Source: Lachnospira multipara LB2003 (lineage in GTDB: Bacteria > Bacillota > Clostridia > Lachnospirales > Lachnospiraceae). Taken from it: a stretch of 64,000 nucleotides of DNA. Positions within the stretch are counted from its first letter, which is position 1, and the number at the start of each line of letters is the position of its first letter. The position numbers were made by a program, and so were the translations under genes. The notes under the pieces were generated by a model. It saw only the letters and a program-made list of their open reading frames with translations. It did no database searches and was not told where the DNA came from. This document shows positions 2,218 through 33,976 of this stretch, in pieces. The stretch lies in assembly GCF_000702205.1 (NCBI RefSeq), contig NZ_JNKW01000001.1, forward strand, positions 496,001-560,000, given 5' to 3'.

Positions 2218-3108
2218 TTAATTATCATCAGTGCAATTTACCTCTTCCTCTTTGGAAACAAGAACCTTATCCACCATCTTATTGTTGACTGTGTAAATTG
2301 TAAATTTATAGTTACCACACTTAGCACTAAATCCCTCATCTTTCTTATCTGGAATCTTACCTAATTCGCAAATAAGAAATCCATTAAGTGTATCCACCTC
2401 TTCACAACTAAATTCAATTTCCAGCTTATCCTCTACATCCTCAAGAGTTATCTGACCATCCATAATAAATGTACCATCATCTCTTTGGATTATTTGTTCC
2501 TCTTCATCATCATATTCATCAAAGATATTACCAACTATTTCCTCTAAAATATCCTCCATAGTAATAATACCTGTTGTCTGCCCATATTCATCCACCACAA
2601 CGGCCATATGTGTCTTCTTTATCTTCATCTCTTTAAAAAGAGCACTTATATTTCGTGTTTCAGGTATGCAATATGCCTCAAACATTAAGTTATTACCTAA
2701 CTCCTTTAGTGTCTTATTTTTACAATCATCAGACACGTATGCTTTTAATAAATCTCTAATATGCAGAATACCAATTACATTATCTATATCTTCATCAAAA
2801 ACTGGATATCTCGAATAATTCTCTTCCATCACATAATCAAAAGCTTCACTAACTGTCTGTGTTGCATCAATGGCAACTATATTCTTTCGATGAACCATAA
2901 CATCTTGGGCTTGTTTCTCTCCAAACTCAAAAATGTTACCTATCATTTCAGCTTCGCTTTCCTTAATGACACCTTGTTCATGACTTTCATTAACCATATC
3001 CATTATTTCTTCAGATATATCTTCTTCTTGCTTGTCTTTACCTGTAATTTTTCTTAATAAACCCATCAAAAAACCATTTGTTACATCCGAGGGGTGTACT
3101 TCGTTCAT
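2218..3108 (-). CDS. CorC/TlyC-like CBS-pair protein
   Basis: A 296-residue soluble protein built of a short helical N-terminus, two CBS domains (about residues 70-125 and 135-190, with DVMVHRKNIVAI and HMAVVVDEYGQTTGIITMEDILEEIVGNI) and a C-terminal CorC_HlyC domain (about 208-283). This is the layout of CorC/TlyC 'hemolysin family' proteins, linked in the family to magnesium and cobalt efflux; CBS pairs bind adenine nucleotides. It lacks the DUF21 membrane domain that longer relatives carry, so it is probably a cytosolic accessory. It is encoded upstream of the diguanylate cyclase on the same strand, 72 bases away. True hemolytic activity is not implied. Confidence 0.85.
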   Translation of the reverse strand: MNEVHPSDVTNGFLMGLLRKITGKDKQEEDISEEIMDMVNESHEQGVIKESEAEMIGNIFEFGEKQAQDVMVHRKNIVAIDATQTVSEAFDYVMEENYSRYPVFDEDIDNVIGILHIRDLLKAYVSDDCKNKTLKELGNNLMFEAYCIPETRNISALFKEMKIKKTHMAVVVDEYGQTTGIITMEDILEEIVGNIFDEYDDEEEQIIQRDDGTFIMDGQITLEDVEDKLEIEFSCEEVDTLNGFLICELGKIPDKKDEGFSAKCGNYKFTIYTVNNKMVDKVLVSKEEEVNCTDDN

Positions 3109-3197
3109 ATTCTCATATTCCTTTCATTTAGCAAAAAATTATTAGCTACCTTGCAAATTGCCGTAAGCTTTAAAATAAAATATACCACATATTATAA

Positions 3198-4802
3198 CTA
3201 AATTTCAACAAGTCCAACAGTTTCAGCAATTACTTGGGCTACGCTTCTTGAAATATCTCCTGCAATAATTCCCATAGCTGTTAAATTAGCGGCTGCTAAA
3301 TCTCCTGCATTAGCATGAACATTAACTGCCACAACTGCACTTGTAAACTCACAAAGCCCTAAATTAAGTAGTCCTGCCACAACACCAGTTAATACATCTC
3401 CTGAACCTGCCGTTGCCATTCCATCATTGCCAGCCTGGTTAATAACTGCATAATCTCCATCTGCTATAACAGTCTTAGCATCCTTTAAAACTGTAATAAC
3501 TCCATATTTTTTAGAAAAATTAAGGGCTATATTTACCATATCTTTTTTTATATCCTCTAGCTTAATGCCAGTTAATCTTTCCATTTCCTTTAAATGTGGT
3601 GTGATAATTATTTTCTTATCACCATTATTAATGTCTCTTTTTAACAATTCCTGCAAAGAATTTTCAGCAATTATATTTAGGGCATCAGCATCAATAACTA
3701 GCTTAGTCTTTACATGTTCTAATACATATTTTGTAAGTTTAAGGGCTGTATTGTCCCTAGATAGGCCTGGTCCTATTACCAAGCTATCGCCAAAGTCAAT
3801 TGTTTGCTGGATTAAATCTTCACTTATATCGTCATCATATACATCAATTAAACACTCAGGAAAAACTGATAATACAGCTTCTTTATTATTCTTATGAGTC
3901 AATAGCTTAACCATACCAACCCCCATTCTAAGGGCTGTTAATGCACTAAGGATGGCAGCACCACCCATATTTTTAGAGCCGGCAATAATTGTAACCTTTC
4001 CATAGCTTCCCTTATTCCCGCCTCTTTTTCTTTTTTTTAGGACTTCATTTACTTCTTTAGAATAATCATTATTATCCTTTAGAATGTTTCCTGTTATTGC
4101 TTTTACATGTCCAATTTTTTCAAAGACTTTTAATTTACTATCTAAACTAGCCTTCCTGCCAATTTCAATTAGTGTTTCCTTGTCATTAAAGCACACTGGT
4201 GTTGAAATTACTTTTCCTGACACATAAGCTCCATCTCCACAAAAAAGTCCAATTTTTTCATATCCAAATGTAATAGTCTTATTAGCTTTAACACAAACAC
4301 CAAGAATTGCTCCTGTGCTTGCATTAATTCCTGATGGAACATCTAGAGAATAGACCATTGCCTGTGAGTTGTTAATAAATTCAATAATTTCTTTATATTT
4401 TCCTTCTACTTGTCTATTTAATCCCACTCCAAATATGGCATCAACTATTAAATCATAATCCTTACTTGGCTTATTAAATTCAGTTATTAGGGTAATTCCC
4501 ATGGACTCTAAAATTCTTTGTTGTTCTAGATTTTGCTCTGAATAATGGCTTCCAAGAATCAAAGCTTCTGTATTTCTATAACCTGCTAATATAAGCATTC
4601 TAAGAAGTGCAAGTCCATCGCCTCCATTATTTCCTGAACCGCATACAATTAAGATTTTGCTTTGCTTACCATAATCTTGTCTTATTTGTTCAAAGCTAAA
4701 TTTAGCTGCCTCCTCCATTAATAAAAGAGAGGGCACTCCTAAAGTATTTATTGTATATTCGTCTATGGCGCCTGCACATTTACTATCTATTAAATCAATC
4801 AT
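3198..4802 (-). CDS. nnr: Bifunctional NAD(P)H-hydrate epimerase / ADP-dependent dehydratase
   Basis: The 534-residue protein has two domains: a YjeF_N epimerase domain (about 1-215, with VCGSGNNGGDGL and DAIFGVG) and a ribokinase-like dehydratase domain (about 245-530, with GSYGKVTIIAGSKNMGGAA, GPGL, TPHLKEMERL and NQAGNDGMATAGSGDVLTG). It repairs hydrated NADH and NADPH: the epimerase interconverts R and S forms and the kinase-fold domain dehydrates the S form. The start codon overlaps the end of the upstream unknown gene by eight bases, so the two are probably translationally coupled. Length and motifs match the bacterial fusion form. Confidence 0.93.
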   Translation of the reverse strand: MIDLIDSKCAGAIDEYTINTLGVPSLLLMEEAAKFSFEQIRQDYGKQSKILIVCGSGNNGGDGLALLRMLILAGYRNTEALILGSHYSEQNLEQQRILESMGITLITEFNKPSKDYDLIVDAIFGVGLNRQVEGKYKEIIEFINNSQAMVYSLDVPSGINASTGAILGVCVKANKTITFGYEKIGLFCGDGAYVSGKVISTPVCFNDKETLIEIGRKASLDSKLKVFEKIGHVKAITGNILKDNNDYSKEVNEVLKKRKRGGNKGSYGKVTIIAGSKNMGGAAILSALTALRMGVGMVKLLTHKNNKEAVLSVFPECLIDVYDDDISEDLIQQTIDFGDSLVIGPGLSRDNTALKLTKYVLEHVKTKLVIDADALNIIAENSLQELLKRDINNGDKKIIITPHLKEMERLTGIKLEDIKKDMVNIALNFSKKYGVITVLKDAKTVIADGDYAVINQAGNDGMATAGSGDVLTGVVAGLLNLGLCEFTSAVVAVNVHANAGDLAAANLTAMGIIAGDISRSVAQVIAETVGLVEI

Positions 4803-9680: not shown

Positions 9681-11642
9681 ATGATTCTTTCAGTTAATAA
9701 TATAAATAAATCCTTTGGTACTGATGTTATCATTAAGGATGCTACTTTTAATATTGAAGACCATGAAAAGGCTGCAATTGTCGGTATTAATGGAGCTGGT
9801 AAATCAACTCTTTTAAAGATGATTGTAGGAGAAGAGCCTGTTGATAGTGGTCTTGTTACCTTTACCCGTGGCAAAACTGTTGGTTATCTTGCCCAGCAAC
9901 AAAATCTTAGTTCTGGTAAGAACATTTATGATGAATTGCTTGAAGTTAAACAATTTGTAATTGATATGGAAAAAGAGCTAAGAGAACTTGAATCCTTAAT
10001 GGGCAGCACTAAGGGTGAGGAGCTTGATGCCCTCCTTAACAAATACAACAGTTTAAACCAAAAATTTGAAATGGCTAATGGTTATGCCTATAAGTCTGAA
10101 ATTGTGGGTGTTTTAAAGGGCTTAGGATTTAGCGAAGAAGATTTTAGTCTTAATGTAAACACATTGTCTGGTGGACAAAAAACCCGTGTGGCCCTAGGTA
10201 AAATCCTTCTTTCAAATCCTGATATTATCTTACTTGATGAGCCTACTAACCACTTAGATATGGAATCTATTGCATGGCTAGAAAACTATTTACTTAACTA
10301 CACAGGTGCTGTAGTTTTAGTTTCCCATGATAGATATTTCCTTGATAAAATCGTTTCTAAGGTTATTGAAATTGACCAGGGTGTAGTTACTGTCTTTAGC
10401 GGAAACTATACTGATTACGCAAGCAAAAAGGCCATTCTTCGTAATATGAAATTAAAAGAATACTTAAATCAGCAGCGTGAAATTAAGCATCAGGAAGCAG
10501 TTATAACTAAGCTTAAGCAGTTTAACCGCGAGAAATCTATTAAGAGAGCGGAATCTCGTGAAAAAATGCTTGATAAAATTGATGTTATTGAAAAGCCAAC
10601 TGAACTTGATGATAAGATGAAGATAAAGCTAGAACCTGAGGTTGTTAGTGGTAATGACGTTCTTTCTGTAGAAGGACTTACTAAATCCTTTGACGATGTT
10701 ACTCTTTTTAAAAACATAAACCTTGATATTAAGCGTGGGGAAAGAGTTGCCCTAATTGGTAATAATGGTACTGGAAAGACTACTATTCTACGTCTCCTTA
10801 ACGGCCTTATTCCGGCAGATAGCGGAACTATTACCCTTGGATCAAAAGTTGAAATTGGTTACTACGATCAGGAACACCATGTACTTGACCCAGATAAGAC
10901 ACTTTTTGAAGAAATTAGTGATGCTTATCCAGACCTTAACAATACCAAGATTCGTAATACATTAGCCGCTTTCCTTTTTACAGGAGATGATGTATTTAAG
11001 TATATTAGAGACTTATCTGGTGGTGAAAGAGGTAGAGTTTCCCTTGCAAAGCTTATGCTTTCTAACGCCAACTTCCTCATCCTTGATGAGCCTACTAACC
11101 ACCTAGATATTGTATCTAAGGAAATTCTAGAGAACGCCCTAAATAGCTACACAGGAACAGTTCTCTATGTAAGTCATGATAGATATTTTATTAATACAAC
11201 TGCCACAAGAATTGTTGAACTTACTAATAAAACCACAGTTAATTACATTGGTAATTATGACTATTACATTGAAAAAAAGGACATTTTAACAAAGGCTGCA
11301 GTGGATGAAGCCCTTAAAAATGACCCAACGCTTCTTAATAAAGCTACTGTTACAGTTAATACTACATCTTCTAATAACAATAATTCTAATTCAAAAGAAG
11401 AGTGGAAACAGTCAAGGGAAGAGCAAAACAGACTTAAAAAAGCCAAAAATGAGCTTAAAAAAGTCGAGGCTAAAATCGAAGAATTAGAGGAAAAAGTCAA
11501 AAAAATCGACGAAGAATATGCAAATCCTGAAATTGCAAGCAACACTGGAAAACTTATGGAGCTACATAAGGAGAAAACCAGTATTGAAGCGGATTTGAGC
11601 AATTTATATGATAGGTGGGAAATTCTTTCTGAGAGTATATAA
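9681..11642 (+). CDS. ABC-F family ATPase (ribosome-associated)
   Basis: The 653-residue protein has two ABC ATPase domains and no membrane segments. The first has Walker A GINGAGKST at about 35-43 and signature LSGGQKTRVALGK; the second has GNNGTGKTT and LSGGERGRVSLAK. A helical linker of about 85 residues (P-site interaction motif region, about 235-320) separates them, and a charged coiled coil closes the C-terminus (about 570-650). This is the ABC-F layout; members bind the ribosomal E site and act on stalled or antibiotic-blocked ribosomes. The length and C-terminal coiled coil suggest a YdiF/Uup-like housekeeping factor, but subclass and any drug resistance cannot be settled from sequence alone. 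A GGAGG site precedes the ATG. Confidence 0.9.
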   Translation: MILSVNNINKSFGTDVIIKDATFNIEDHEKAAIVGINGAGKSTLLKMIVGEEPVDSGLVTFTRGKTVGYLAQQQNLSSGKNIYDELLEVKQFVIDMEKELRELESLMGSTKGEELDALLNKYNSLNQKFEMANGYAYKSEIVGVLKGLGFSEEDFSLNVNTLSGGQKTRVALGKILLSNPDIILLDEPTNHLDMESIAWLENYLLNYTGAVVLVSHDRYFLDKIVSKVIEIDQGVVTVFSGNYTDYASKKAILRNMKLKEYLNQQREIKHQEAVITKLKQFNREKSIKRAESREKMLDKIDVIEKPTELDDKMKIKLEPEVVSGNDVLSVEGLTKSFDDVTLFKNINLDIKRGERVALIGNNGTGKTTILRLLNGLIPADSGTITLGSKVEIGYYDQEHHVLDPDKTLFEEISDAYPDLNNTKIRNTLAAFLFTGDDVFKYIRDLSGGERGRVSLAKLMLSNANFLILDEPTNHLDIVSKEILENALNSYTGTVLYVSHDRYFINTTATRIVELTNKTTVNYIGNYDYYIEKKDILTKAAVDEALKNDPTLLNKATVTVNTTSSNNNNSNSKEEWKQSREEQNRLKKAKNELKKVEAKIEELEEKVKKIDEEYANPEIASNTGKLMELHKEKTSIEADLSNLYDRWEILSESI

Positions 11643-11687
11643 ATTCAAAAAAATCGCATAAAATCGGCATTTTTTAAGTTAAAATTG

Positions 11688-24407: not shown

Positions 24408-24490
24408 AGGGCAATAAAGCCCATAAACACTTAAGTTTTAATAATTATTTGAGGGGATGGAAGTACATATTGTACTTCCATTTTCATTTA
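24408..24490 (+). ncRNA. Small RNA candidate of about 80 bases
   Basis: A complete small transcription unit by inspection: promoter at 24373-24401, a 5' hairpin GGGC-AATAAA-GCCC (24409-24422), an A/U-rich single-stranded middle and a terminator hairpin. It contains no ribosome site at a proper distance from a start codon; the ATG in GAGGGGATGG is too close to the purine run. Its 3' end meets the stop codon of the SpeE-like gene on the opposite strand. Confidence 0.45.
24459..24490 (+). terminator. Terminator of the small RNA candidate
   Basis: Stem GGAAGTAC/GTACTTCC (24459-24466 with 24472-24479), then ATTTTCATTT. On the other strand the tail is not T-rich, so it is mainly a plus-strand terminator. 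Confidence 0.65.
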
Positions 24491-25237
24491 TAGCAGTTCT
24501 AGTGCTGGAATTTCACTGTCTGTGCCAATTAGAATACAATTTTGTTTTTCAAGTGGGCTAGATTCTGGTCTAGTTGTATAGAAGGCTACATTTTTAAAAT
24601 TGGCATCAAAAACTTGTCTTGCAATTTTTCCATCGTTAGCATAAAAGCCAGAAAGAGCTGTAATAATATTTACAATATAGATACCACCTGTGTTTAAGTG
24701 CCTTTTTATATGCGCAACACCCCTATAGGACATAAGCCCGCTATCTAGAACGTTTCCTATATATGCATCATTAATTATGCAGTCATATTTCTTATCCTGC
24801 TTTGATAAAAACTTCATTCCATCATCAACATAAATATTTAATGCACCATCTTTATCCCCTTCCATAAATTCATCGATATAAAAATATTTATGCGCAATTT
24901 CTACCATCTCAGGATTTATCTCAACTACATCCATCTTACAACCTTGATGATTCTTTATATAATACTTCGGATATGACATTCCAGCGCCGCCAATAAGCAG
25001 CGTTTCTTTAATATCCGGCTTAATATTAAAAATATTCTCAAATTGTCTTGTATACTTAAAAAGGAGCTCATGATGATGTCCTTCTTCCCTTAAGCAGGCT
25101 GATTCCCTAGCAAAGTTAACCATAAGGATTCTAATTTCTTTACCATCTTCAACCACATCCCTAACCATGATTTTTCCATAACCTCTAGATTTACTTTTAT
25201 ATAGATTTCTCTCATCGTCATTTATTTGTTTTGCCAT
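24488..25237 (-). CDS. Spermidine synthase-like methyltransferase-fold protein
   Basis: The 249-residue protein has the Rossmann fold of the spermidine synthase family: LLIGGAGMSYPKYY, VVEINPEMVEIAHKYF, NIYVDDGMKFLSKQ and DCIINDAYIG. The GGGDGG loop of real SpeE is changed to GGAGMS and the catalytic D-A-T-D-P is D-A-Y-I-G, unlike the canonical speE in this same window. It is therefore unlikely to be an ordinary aminopropyltransferase, and may bind S-adenosylmethionine or a different aminopropyl or methyl donor. GGGGC precedes the ATG. It stands as a single gene; the neighbouring HPr-like gene has its own terminator upstream. Confidence 0.75.
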   Translation of the reverse strand: MAKQINDDERNLYKSKSRGYGKIMVRDVVEDGKEIRILMVNFARESACLREEGHHHELLFKYTRQFENIFNIKPDIKETLLIGGAGMSYPKYYIKNHQGCKMDVVEINPEMVEIAHKYFYIDEFMEGDKDGALNIYVDDGMKFLSKQDKKYDCIINDAYIGNVLDSGLMSYRGVAHIKRHLNTGGIYIVNIITALSGFYANDGKIARQVFDANFKNVAFYTTRPESSPLEKQNCILIGTDSEIPALELL

Positions 25238-29785: not shown

Positions 29786-32407
29786 TTAGAAATGCTTATT
29801 TAAGAAATTATTTCGAAGTTGCTCTTCTCTTTTATTAACATCTTCAAGTAATTCCCTTGCAGACATAAGTAAACATCCCTGACCTCTAATAATTACCTGC
29901 TCTAGGCCATCTGATGTAGCAACTGTCACATTTCTTTTTCTTCCATTTTCATGAGCAAATTTTTCAATGTAATGATCTGCTGTCTCAGCTTCCTTAGTAT
30001 AGACCACATGGATATTATTTAAATCAACAAATTCCTCGCCATGTCCCTTAACCTTATATGCGTCAAAAACCACAATTATTTCTGATGAAATAAGGGACTG
30101 ATAATGCTGCATTATATCAAGAAGTCTTCCCCTTGCACCGTCAAAATTAGTTTTTTGTAATTCATCAAGTTCTGGCCAGGCATGAATAATATTATATCCA
30201 TCAACTAATAAATAATTTTTTGAATTTTTATCGTTCTTATTAGCATAAAGAGCACTGTCCTTACCTACATATTTTTCTGAATACAAGCTTTCTTTATTAG
30301 CTGTTACTCTACGTGCAGATCCATAACTTGGGTCATTTTTCTTCTTTCTTTGCTTTATAGAATCTGACTTGCTATTAGAATAATAGGTCTCAGATAGGAT
30401 TCTATCTACTTCTTCTGTTCCTATCCATTCATCAGATACTGTTCTTGATGCTGCTTTGGCATTAATAGGTCTTAAAGTGACATCCTTTTTATCCTGTCCA
30501 TTTTCTTCAATAATTTCACAATGGGCATGTTCTCTTACCTCATACCAAGGCACTGTATAACCTGAACCATGGGCGCAAAATACTGAATCCACAGGATTTC
30601 TAGTATCTCTTTCAGGATCATAAGCCCTCTTAGCTATCACTTCTTCACTATTATGACATTCCTTATATCCTGACATTTGAAGACTTATCCTTCCTGTACC
30701 CTTAGTGTAGGTGTTAAGCTCTGCCTGATAATTTCCAATGGCTACAACCGGTGCCTCGCCTCTAATAATTGTTTCTTCACCATCATCCTCTAAGTTAGAT
30801 GTTCCACCAATTCTTTCAATGTCTGTCATTGCCCTTCCAACATATGCTCTATCAATTCTAATTTCATAGGCATAAAAAGGCTCTAAAATCACAGACTCTG
30901 CCATCATAAGACCCTGTCTTATTGCCCTATAGGTTGCCTGTCTAAAATCTCCACCTTCTGTATGCTTAGGGTGGGCTCTACCATTAACAACTGTAATAAC
31001 CATATCTGTAATATCAGCTCTTATTAATACACCCTTATGATTTCTTTCCTGCAAATGGGTCAAAATAAGTCTTTGCCAGTTCTTATCAAGTACATCCTCA
31101 CTACAATCAGTCTTAAATACAAGACCTGACCCTCTTTCTCCTTCTTCTAGCTTTAAATGTACCTCAGCGTAGTGTCTTAGGGGTTCAAAATGTCCAATTC
31201 CATAACTGCTACCCTTAATTGTCTCTTTATAAACCACGCTTCCTGTGCCAAATTCCACATCCACCCCAAATCTTTTCTTTATAAGACCTGTTAGGATTTC
31301 TAATTGCACAGCTCCCATAAGACTAACAATTATCTCTCTAAATTCCTCATTCCATCTAATATTAAGAGCTGGCTCCTCCTCTTCTAGTTGTCGTAGTAGA
31401 GGTAGCATAACAAGTGGATCCTTATCCTTTGGCAAAATCATTTTGTATTCTAGTACCGGTGCAATCATTGCATTATTTTGTGTATTTTCAAGACCTAATC
31501 CTGTTCCTGCAGCAACACTATCTAATCCAATAACTACACATACATCACCTGCATAAACCTCAGGTGTAGCTGTAAATTTATCACCATTATAGACTCTAAT
31601 TTGATTTACTTTTTCTTCTGCAATTATGTCCTTATTTTTCAATTTTCCTGATGTTAGTTTAAGATGTATTAATCGTTCATTATTCTGTCTTGTTATCTTA
31701 ATAACCCTTGCACCAAATCCATCTTCTACTCTATTACTATAAACATCCCTACTATATTCATTAATAATATCTAGTAGTTTTTCTACTCCCTCTAATTTTA
31801 AAGCCGAACCAAATACAACAGGAAAAATATGTCTTTTGTAAATTTCAGACACTATTGTCTCTTTTGATAGGCTTTCATTTTCTAGATATTCATCAAGAGT
31901 ATCATCAGAGGCAAAGGAAATTTCTTCCATATCCATTTCATTAAAATCATAACAATTAGTTGATAATCTATTCTGTAATATCTTTAGAACTCTTTCCTTA
32001 CTTGCGCCCTGCTGGTCCATTTTATTCACAAAAATAAATGTTGGAATTTTTAATTTAGATAATAAATTCCATACTGTTTCTGTATGCCCCATAACACCAT
32101 CTGCTTGATCTATTACTATTATAGCAATATCTAGGGCCCACAAATTTCTTTCCATTTCGGCACTAAAATCTACGTGTCCTGGGGTGTCTATTAAATTAAC
32201 TTCTACGTCTTTATAAGTAAACCTGGCCTCTTTAGAATAAATGGTGATACCTCTAGACTTTTCTACTTCATCTGTATCAAGAAAGGCATCACCATTATCT
32301 ACTCTTCCAAGCTTACGAATAACTCCTGTCTTATAAAGTATTGCCTCTGATAATGTGGTTTTACCAGCATCAACATGGGCAAGCATTCCAATCGTAAGCT
32401 TCTTCAT
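29786..32407 (-). CDS. Tet(M)-like ribosomal GTPase fused to a Rae1/YacP-type NYN ribonuclease domain
   Basis: An 873-residue two-part protein. Residues 1 to about 645 form a complete translational GTPase of the ribosomal-protection type: P-loop AHVDAGKTT (10-18), RGITI (52-56), DTPGH (74-78), NKMD (about 128-131), then domains II-V. The domain IV tip reads GRAHPKHTEGGDF, unlike the SPVS tip of Tet(M) that evicts tetracycline. A charged, low-complexity linker follows (about 670-730). Residues 732-865 are a YacP/Rae1 NYN domain with all four expected acidic residues: Asp736 (LLVDGYN), Asp782 (VVFDAYK), Asp811 (ETADH) and Asp833 (ATSDGLEQ). Rae1 is known to cut mRNA in the ribosomal A site; the fusion would deliver such a nuclease by a GTPase that binds the same site. 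It starts nine bases after aguB. Confidence 0.9.
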   Translation of the reverse strand: MKKLTIGMLAHVDAGKTTLSEAILYKTGVIRKLGRVDNGDAFLDTDEVEKSRGITIYSKEARFTYKDVEVNLIDTPGHVDFSAEMERNLWALDIAIIVIDQADGVMGHTETVWNLLSKLKIPTFIFVNKMDQQGASKERVLKILQNRLSTNCYDFNEMDMEEISFASDDTLDEYLENESLSKETIVSEIYKRHIFPVVFGSALKLEGVEKLLDIINEYSRDVYSNRVEDGFGARVIKITRQNNERLIHLKLTSGKLKNKDIIAEEKVNQIRVYNGDKFTATPEVYAGDVCVVIGLDSVAAGTGLGLENTQNNAMIAPVLEYKMILPKDKDPLVMLPLLRQLEEEEPALNIRWNEEFREIIVSLMGAVQLEILTGLIKKRFGVDVEFGTGSVVYKETIKGSSYGIGHFEPLRHYAEVHLKLEEGERGSGLVFKTDCSEDVLDKNWQRLILTHLQERNHKGVLIRADITDMVITVVNGRAHPKHTEGGDFRQATYRAIRQGLMMAESVILEPFYAYEIRIDRAYVGRAMTDIERIGGTSNLEDDGEETIIRGEAPVVAIGNYQAELNTYTKGTGRISLQMSGYKECHNSEEVIAKRAYDPERDTRNPVDSVFCAHGSGYTVPWYEVREHAHCEIIEENGQDKKDVTLRPINAKAASRTVSDEWIGTEEVDRILSETYYSNSKSDSIKQRKKKNDPSYGSARRVTANKESLYSEKYVGKDSALYANKNDKNSKNYLLVDGYNIIHAWPELDELQKTNFDGARGRLLDIMQHYQSLISSEIIVVFDAYKVKGHGEEFVDLNNIHVVYTKEAETADHYIEKFAHENGRKRNVTVATSDGLEQVIIRGQGCLLMSARELLEDVNKREEQLRNNFLNKHF

Positions 32408-32416
32408 TATTTATTC

Positions 32417-33301
32417 CTACTTTTCTGTAATTATTTTATACATATCAGGGCGTCTATCTCTAAACAATCCCCATGACATTCTGTCCTCTTCTAAACTGTC
32501 TAAATCAAAGCTGTGGCAAATTACTCCCTCCACATCTCTTCCAAGTTCTTCTACGATTGCACCTGTATTATCTGTAATAAATGATGAACCATAAAAGTTA
32601 AGACTTGAGCTTTGTCCGCCATTAGCCTCGCTTTCATAAACCTCTTCTAAACCAATTCTATTAGCTGCTATTACTGGCATTAAATTAGCTGCTGAATGGC
32701 CCTGCATTACTCTTCTCCAATGTGGCATACTATCAACCTCTAAGATTGGTTCGCTTCCAATTGCTGTTGGATAGAATAAAAGCTCAGCCCCAAGAAGTGC
32801 CATAGATCTAGCAGTTTCTGGGAACCACTGATCCCAACAAATTCCTACACCTATCTTGGCATACTTTGTATCAAATGCCATAAATCCTGTATCTCCAGGT
32901 GTAAAATAGAATTTTTCCTGATAATAATGATCATCTGGTATATGTGTCTTTCTATATGTTCCAAGATTAGTTCCGTCTGCATCAATTACTACTACGCTGT
33001 TAAATAATCTAGTAACATCCTTTTCATATACACTTACAATGACAACAACTGATAATTCCTTTGCCAATTCTATAAAGTGCTTAACTGCCTTATTATCATC
33101 TATACTTGTTGCAAAGTTATAATAGTCATATCTTCTCTCCTGACAAAAATACTGTCTTTCAAAAAGCTCTGGTAAAAGAATTATATTAGCTCCAGCCTTA
33201 GCTGCTTCTCTTACATACTTATCTGCTGTGGCAATATTCTCATCTACATTTCTTGTGCAGGCAAATTGTACTGCTGCCACCTTTACTTCTCTTTTATTCA
33301 T
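32417..33301 (-). CDS. aguB: N-carbamoylputrescine amidase
   Basis: The 294-residue nitrilase-family protein has the Glu-Lys-Cys triad in LLPELFERQYF, YRKTHIPDD and GVGICWDQWFPE, and segments typical of N-carbamoylputrescine amidases (FYFTPGDTGF, YPTAIGSEP, AANRIG). It converts N-carbamoylputrescine to putrescine, CO2 and ammonia, the last step from agmatine. AguA, its partner, is two genes upstream in the same operon. Cytosolic. Confidence 0.95.
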   Translation of the reverse strand: MNKREVKVAAVQFACTRNVDENIATADKYVREAAKAGANIILLPELFERQYFCQERRYDYYNFATSIDDNKAVKHFIELAKELSVVVIVSVYEKDVTRLFNSVVVIDADGTNLGTYRKTHIPDDHYYQEKFYFTPGDTGFMAFDTKYAKIGVGICWDQWFPETARSMALLGAELLFYPTAIGSEPILEVDSMPHWRRVMQGHSAANLMPVIAANRIGLEEVYESEANGGQSSSLNFYGSSFITDNTGAIVEELGRDVEGVICHSFDLDSLEEDRMSWGLFRDRRPDMYKIITEK

Positions 33302-33334: not shown

Positions 33335-33976
33335 CTAATTTACTTTAAGGTTCTTCTTTTTTAGTAAATAAATTAAGATTGCTATAAGCCATGAACCACC
33401 AACTATTAATATAAACCATATTACTGACATTAAAATTGACTGTTCATGCACCTTTAAGAAAGCATATGGTCCATCTATAATATATAATGCATTTAAAGTA
33501 ATTGTTATTATAGCGTAAATTACTGTTGGTATTGCATTAAAGCAAGCATTGGCAAATCTTAAATTTACAACATCCTCAAAAGCTGCAAAGGAAACAAATC
33601 CTATTATTGGGCATAGTGTATGATAAAAAAGAGATGAACCTTTAAATAAATACCAACATGTCCAATCAAATCCTGCTATTGGAATTAATACAAAAATTAC
33701 TACAAGAAATGTTAAACACATACAGCAAACTGCCATAAATCGTAATTTTGAAACAAATTCTACTGTCTTTAGCTTTCCTGCCTTTAAGGAGCTAATACCT
33801 GTTATTACAAATAGAATACTAGATAATAATCCTAGGAAATTACTATCCTGTGTGTAATATTTAAACATTACAAACTGATTTTCCTTAAAACTAAAAACTG
33901 CTCCTATTATTCCTAAAACTATAAGAATAATGTTTAAACAAAATGCCACCTTAAATTTTCTAAATTTTTTGTCCAT
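33335..33976 (-). CDS. Six-helix membrane protein of the Pr6Pr/FAR-17a-like type
   Basis: The 213-residue protein has about six hydrophobic segments (near residues 10-28, 45-62, 78-100, 118-135, 148-168, 180-205) and the motif MFKYYTQDSNFLGLLSS, resembling the FTxQSN block of Pr6Pr/AIG1-like membrane proteins. Function unknown. It lies between aguA and aguB with short gaps, so it is probably part of the polyamine operon; a role in polyamine or related small-molecule handling is possible but only inferred from position. Confidence 0.65.
   Translation of the reverse strand: MDKKFRKFKVAFCLNIILIVLGIIGAVFSFKENQFVMFKYYTQDSNFLGLLSSILFVITGISSLKAGKLKTVEFVSKLRFMAVCCMCLTFLVVIFVLIPIAGFDWTCWYLFKGSSLFYHTLCPIIGFVSFAAFEDVVNLRFANACFNAIPTVIYAIITITLNALYIIDGPYAFLKVHEQSILMSVIWFILIVGGSWLIAILIYLLKKKNLKVN

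Follow-up and report, generated by a model that had tools for sequence, protein, structure and literature searches.

In the 64,000-nucleotide stretch of Lachnospira multipara LB2003 DNA analyzed here (hereafter the window), a gene on the minus strand (29786..32407, ATG start) encodes an 873-residue protein in which an EF-G-like translational GTPase is joined to a Rae1/YacP NYN domain. This protein is rather likely to be the form that Rae1 takes in its lineage, with a dedicated EF-G-like GTPase carrying an endonuclease that cuts mRNA in a ribosome-dependent manner, and not primarily a tetracycline resistance protein. The fusion had been predicted from the nucleotide sequence, with no strand given, and is borne out by the open reading frame and by Pfam domains of both modules.

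The domain search proposed as a check of this architecture placed GTP_EFTU (residues 4-218, 1.1e-53), EFG_III (329-387), EFG_IV (390-503) and EFG_C (507-587) over the Pfam cut-offs in the GTPase module, which comprises the G domain and domains II-V (residues 1-600; 30608..32407, minus), and NYN_YacP at residues 733-868 (6.5e-49; 166.6 bits vs a cut-off of 24.6), with EF-G_D2 remaining below its Pfam cut-off (22.5 vs 27 bits). The motifs AHVDAGKTT (the P-loop, residues 10-18; 32354..32380, minus), RGITI, DTPGH and NKMD were found and, having an EF-Tu-type G domain, EF-G domains III-V and the catalytic His, the protein falls within the translational GTPase superfamily. An alignment of 98 fusions located the tip of domain IV, AHPKHTEGGDFR, at residues 478-489 (30941..30976, minus). 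The GTPase carries a C-terminal extension with the pattern FCxxGxG...W (residues 588-645; 30473..30646, minus), followed by a linker predicted to be disordered (residues 646-727; 30227..30472, minus; pLDDT <50) except for a predicted helix at 664-678. This linker had been described as charged; its charge is mild, with K/R at 17% in residues 589-731 vs 13% in the whole protein and D/E at 17% vs 16%. The NYN/Rae1 nuclease module (residues 731-873; 29789..30217, minus) matched the solved YacP structures 5mq8/5mq9, which we take to be the Bacillus subtilis protein, with a phmmer value of 1.4e-28, aligning with residues 4-136 of the 181-residue chain. The G motifs and the acidic residues D736, D782, D811 and D833 lie where they had been predicted, and these four align with acidic residues of 5mq8, so that the NYN core and its acidic residues are common to the fusion and Rae1.

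The conservation of these residues was examined in 98 aligned fusions, consisting of the window protein, 20 chosen Lachnospiraceae members and 77 of 80 named loci (three were dropped as their text pattern was unmatched), the 80 being the best of 589 confirmed candidates and therefore leaning towards close relatives. Ten further fusions (the three dropped loci, six divergent or unnamed ones and one from Agathobacter) were inspected in addition. Conservation of the NYN active site, named beforehand as a point on which the prediction could fall, held throughout: none of D736, N739, D782, T809, D811 and D833 varies among the 98 aligned proteins, and all are kept in the ten further ones. In the GTPase, K16, T17, D37, T55, D74, H78, N128, K129 and D131 are likewise identical in the 98 proteins, A14 of the P-loop being replaced by Ser in nine, and one of the ten further fusions has T55S. 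The tip residues H479 and H482-F488 are identical in the 98 aligned fusions and altered in three of the ten further ones (L171, L172, and L191), so that an invariant tip across the whole fused family was rejected. C611 and G614 of the extension are present in 98/98 and W621 in 97/98, while two of the ten further fusions lack C611; the FCxxGxG...W pattern also occurs in the five unfused relatives that were aligned and is absent from all five aligned Tet proteins. A tail after the NYN core is present in most fusions, is shorter than 25 residues in 28 of the 98 and is absent in the window protein and in those of loci L059 and L078. In B. subtilis Rae1 the substitution R166P, reported as an apparent loss of function, should fall in this C-terminal tail (PMC6613710). 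The missing tail and the three altered tips weigh against reading the fusion as a Rae1.

Public records show how the fusion can be labelled: a 933-residue fusion of Agathobacter rectalis is annotated "TetM/TetW/TetO/TetS family tetracycline resistance", and one of Monoglobus "translation factor GTPase family protein". According to the resistance alternative, the protein would be a tetracycline ribosomal protection protein to whose resistance the added RNase contributes, as proposed by Atkinson (2015; PMC4342817), and its best solved-structure sequence matches are indeed TetO/TetM (1e-70), with EF-G nearly equal at 1.9e-69. We regard it as distinctly unlikely. The fusion scored 393 bits on the ribosomal protection model NF012153 and 278 bits on NF033148 (TetM/W), below the respective NCBIfam cut-offs of 775 and 1100, whereas true Tet proteins from three fusion-bearing genomes passed both models (819-853 and 1247-1312 bits; 4/4 scanned). 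The label on the A. rectalis record stands although the window protein stays below the curated Tet models, as the original prediction had suspected of the tetracycline resistance name. The five unfused relatives scanned scored 371-430 bits on the ribosomal protection model, also below 775. The fusion is not a canonical EF-G either, reaching 296.5 bits on TIGR00484 against a cut-off of 659.4, and the window genome has a separate EF-G that passes this model.

The tip of domain IV agrees with this separation. The predicted AHPKHTEGGDF is present, unlike the Tet-type SPVSTPADF; the segment HxKHTEGGDFR stands against YYSPVSTPADFR, as read in the five aligned Tet proteins from related genomes, and YHEVDSSEMAF in EF-G. 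In a tree of 61 GTPases (a quick method with SH-aLRT support only and long branches), 33 fused proteins lie on one side of a branch with starred support of 100, adjoined by 16 of the 17 unfused relatives (starred support of 95), L188 standing apart. Starred branches of this tree split the 50 fused and unfused GTPases from the five Tet proteins, a separation repeated in an enlarged tree. Besides, a further GTPase clade (L273-L275, L164, and L189; starred support of 98 in the enlarged tree), with tips such as HTHPLDF, belongs neither to Tet nor to the HTEGGDF clade. By models, tip and tree, the GTPase of the fusion is, at the sequence level, a clade of its own and not a Tet protein: Tet(M), Tet(O) and Tet(W) have the STPADF tip and no NYN domain, whereas the fusion combines the HTEGGDF tip, the FCxxGxG extension and the NYN domain. 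It fits with this assignment that one or two Tet-type genes coexist with the fusion in four of the 14 fused genomes searched. The distribution of the gene also speaks against resistance as its main role, as NYN_YacP lies in frames of at least 800 residues in at least 131 of 200 Lachnospiraceae genomes. Among 72,556 plasmid records, only two match at least 80% of the fusion length.

Phenotypic data on resistance are available from the literature for members or possible relatives of the clade. Ligilactobacillus salivarius megaplasmids encode a 644-residue clade member in which Pfam found no NYN domain (33 Ligilactobacillus records), and its tip is altered. Since this protein nests inside the fused clade (starred support of 98 in the enlarged tree), it has probably lost its NYN part. 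In two of these megaplasmid loci (L269 and L278) the gene adjoins rpsN, and it is labelled as tetracycline resistance in most of the records listed. Strain P1CEA3 carries a full-length clade member with this label on pMP1CEA3 and yet was reported as sensitive, with a tetracycline MIC of 1 μg/ml (PMC10778751), which may speak against ribosomal protection; this is a literature value for one strain, and low expression could explain it, as was reported for Bacillus toyonensis Rock1-3 (PMC5209696). On the side of resistance, a TetM-like GTPase encoded on the B. toyonensis chromosome, possibly of another clade, is reported to confer it, the MIC being 16 μg/ml vs 1 μg/ml on deletion (PMC5209696), and L. 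salivarius L33, for which tet(M) and tet(L) are reported, shows intermediate susceptibility to tetracycline (PMC12502609). Tetracycline resistance genes were reported by one paper in all the L. salivarius strains that it compared.

The reading of the fusion as the Rae1 of its lineage also draws on its distribution. The original prediction had called for a check for another rae1, and no other YacP match exists in the window genome. Among 29 stand-alone yacP loci (9 picked from the Lachnospiraceae list and 20 from the Clostridia list, some of them cut by contig ends), rlmB lies just upstream in 23, a sigma gene just downstream in 20, and both in 17. In the window genome this slot reads ispF-cysE-cysS-RNase III-domain gene-rlmB, followed after 23 nt by a SigH-like sigma gene (its best matches are SigH models, below their cut-offs), and it contains no yacP. 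By gene content and order, the fusion stands in for stand-alone Rae1, the usual yacP slot being empty. Compared with B. subtilis Rae1, thus, the window protein is linked to a GTPase, is encoded outside the rlmB-sigH slot and, within its own clade, is devoid of the C-terminal tail.

NYN_YacP was found in 180 of the 200 Lachnospiraceae genomes, and the 150 places listed comprise 131 in frames of at least 800 residues, 13 in frames below 300 and six in between. In five Lachnospiraceae genomes a second YacP match could be put down to a contig edge, a split frame or a duplicate, less certainly so in G039. In a sample of 245 Clostridia genomes YacP occurred in 161 and the GTPase profile at 1e-140 in 104 (G345 by a GTPase of another clade); both were present in 97, the GTPase only in seven, YacP only in 64 and neither in 77, a co-occurrence with a p value of 2e-16 in which kinship is ignored. 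Where the GTPase lies in a frame of at least 734 residues (87 Clostridia genomes), a YacP match was found in 87 of 87. A second match is listed for four of them, corresponding to two fused copies in G331 and to fragments below the cut-off in G334, G399, and G439; a candidate coexistence of fused and stand-alone YacP in three genomes of one genus was rejected, the second matches being 46-codon fragments below the cut-off. Setting aside G421, whose YacP match occupies a 190-residue frame of a different contig, none of the 87 was seen to combine a fused YacP with a separate complete one. The fusion is, then, widespread in Clostridia, usually in single copy, and common in one large family. In a Bacillota-wide sample the GTPase was detected at 1e-140 in 22 of 299 genomes, two of which (G463 and G664) matched only through another clade.

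The two halves go together, not strictly. The GTPase was detected at 1e-100 in none of 19 tested Lachnospiraceae genomes without YacP (there are 20 such genomes; G146 was left out). Nine Lachnospiraceae have a clearly separate YacP, and six of them keep an unfused GTPase elsewhere (G059, G024, G099, G161, G054, and G029); the tree included five of these six GTPases, all of which fall with the unfused clade, the sixth (G099) being a shorter frame. The remaining three (G007, G020, and G068) have no GTPase of the clade of the fusion, and in four more genomes (G016, G042, G095, and G128) the short YacP frames are contig-edge or broken cases. Altogether, YacP occurs without a clade GTPase in five Lachnospiraceae, namely G007 (96% complete), the less complete G016, G020, and G128, and G068, which has a GTPase of another clade only. 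Conversely, seven of the 17 Clostridia genomes with short GTPase frames have no YacP match at all, one of these frames being a contig-edge fragment. Given these GTPases in genomes without YacP and the NYN-less L. salivarius protein inside the fused clade, some function of the GTPase is independent of the nuclease.

This last observation favors an alternative in which the work of the GTPase (translocation, ribosome splitting or clearance of A-site blockers) is separate, the NYN domain being carried along only to hold Rae1 close to ribosomes, or else processing rRNA or tRNA. The long linker, predicted to be flexible, would suit such an arrangement, and NYN domains were once proposed to act in rRNA/tRNA maturation (cited in PMC4342817). 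We consider this explanation unlikely, considering that a single fusion event fits the tree and the fusion has been kept across many Clostridia, that fused and separate complete YacP were not seen together in the Clostridia genomes (G421 set aside), and that the halves are absent together in 19/19 Lachnospiraceae genomes.

Regarding the origin of the fusion, the NYN tree (77 rows; L192 was left out as its pattern was not found) requires two changes between fused and stand-alone domains, or one if three long rows are removed (with a support of only 6), and one fused NYN clade was not rejected by the AU test (p 0.605). A single origin thus fits both trees, with the fused GTPases delimited by the fully supported branch mentioned above and the NYN data compatible with it. 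Comparison of fusion and EF-G distances showed a weak correlation (rho 0.35, reached in 93 of 2000 permutations), giving weak support for vertical inheritance, and both the GTPase and the NYN tree intermingle fusions from distant taxa; on account of these two observations, horizontal transfer of the fusion has probably occurred.

The neighborhood of the gene in the window had suggested a connection with polyamines. As predicted, aguB (32417..33301, minus) ends 9 nt before the start of the fusion, and the two genes are probably co-transcribed in the window, which does not explain the gene. The fusion is the end of a polyamine cluster in which aguB, aguA, nspC and speE exceeded the NCBIfam cut-offs and carboxynorspermidine synthase did not (419 vs 800); on its downstream side there are a GDSL-like gene, whose match stays below the cut-off, and one of the diacylglycerol-kinase type. 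The proposal of a regulator that responds to polyamines and targets polyamine mRNAs or the charge state draws on this arrangement and on loci L059 (same genus) and L078 (a close relative, with one ORF in between), where polyamine genes also adjoin the fusion. It appears highly improbable, for aguB is near the fusion in only 2 of 100 other loci, some of them on short contigs, and is no general neighbor elsewhere; the predicted co-control is therefore not borne out beyond close relatives, and was rejected as a general feature. No conserved neighbor was found across the 100 fusion loci, the largest cluster being ABC-type ATPases (named by reading) in 16 of them, and sites resembling promoters or terminators were no more frequent than in shuffled sequences.

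Several other genes were observed around these loci. A 213-residue membrane-protein-like ORF (by reading) without Pfam or NCBIfam match at the thresholds applied lies between aguA and aguB in the window (33335-33976, minus), and no similar ORF was found at E 1e-20 in the 100 other fusion loci, both related polyamine clusters included. A second spermidine-synthase-like ORF (by reading) is located outside the cluster (24488-25237, minus). In L078 the second gene after the fusion encodes a beta-CASP/RMMBL metallo-hydrolase of RNase type (10031-11656, scanned), and L059 has in this position an ORF with a similar start (2819-4489, by reading), a gene that is absent at that place in the window. In six of the 100 loci (among L048-L067 and L078-L157; e.g., L119:6067-6591) a GreA-like ORF, named by reading, follows the fusion on the same strand.

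Returning to the fusion as a GTPase-carried Rae1, a sequence of events can be put forward. Based on fold and family, the GTPase in its GTP form would bind, at the factor site, a ribosome that has paused or stalled, with the HxKHTEGGDF tip reaching into the A site, and GTP hydrolysis, for which His78 and the residues of the G motifs are conserved, would move or release it. The flexibly tethered NYN domain could then enter the A site thus freed, or that of a neighboring ribosome, and cut the mRNA, as suggested by homology with Bacillus Rae1 and by the conserved active-site residues; the truncated message may be passed on to tmRNA, which was found in the window genome (131 bits). Rae1 has been proposed to act at the ribosomal A site, and since domain IV of the EF-G type and Rae1 are both thought to use this site, their action would be sequential or would take place on two ribosomes. 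Ribosome docking, GTP-driven action and GTPase-directed mRNA cutting are inferred from these analogies. In a broader version, which we put forward tentatively as a possibility short of probable, an unrecognized class of GTPases with the HxKHTEGGDF tip would sample paused ribosomes, clear or open the A site on hydrolysis and hand it to the tethered Rae1, making GTPase-gated cutting of stalled mRNAs a core process in Clostridia, one that databases enter under tetracycline resistance.

The architecture itself is already known, a Tet protein with a YacP-like NYN domain having been noted in ten Clostridiales species in 2015 (Atkinson, 2015; PMC4342817), and those proteins very probably belong to the same family as the one described here. 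In the excerpts of that work the fused proteins are treated as Tet and a resistance role is guessed; these excerpts make no mention of a separate clade, a replacement of rae1 or phenotype data. No other description of the fusion in print was found among the matches listed, in a search that lay apart from the main Rae1 papers; the main text of PMC8547433, one of these matches, does not mention a YacP-like NYN domain. As far as seen, what appears to be new is the separate GTPase clade, its wide spread, compatible with one origin, the replacement of rae1 with an empty slot, and the sensitive strain with a labelled relative.

If this reading is true, surveys of antibiotic resistance are liable to count in error a gene that is common in a large Clostridia family, and the protein would be a natural example of a ribosomal GTPase coupled to mRNA cleavage within one chain. 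It would help to answer how Rae1 reaches paused ribosomes, an activity that is so far a proposal in the sources consulted, and bacterial ribosome quality control would gain a route directed by a GTPase.
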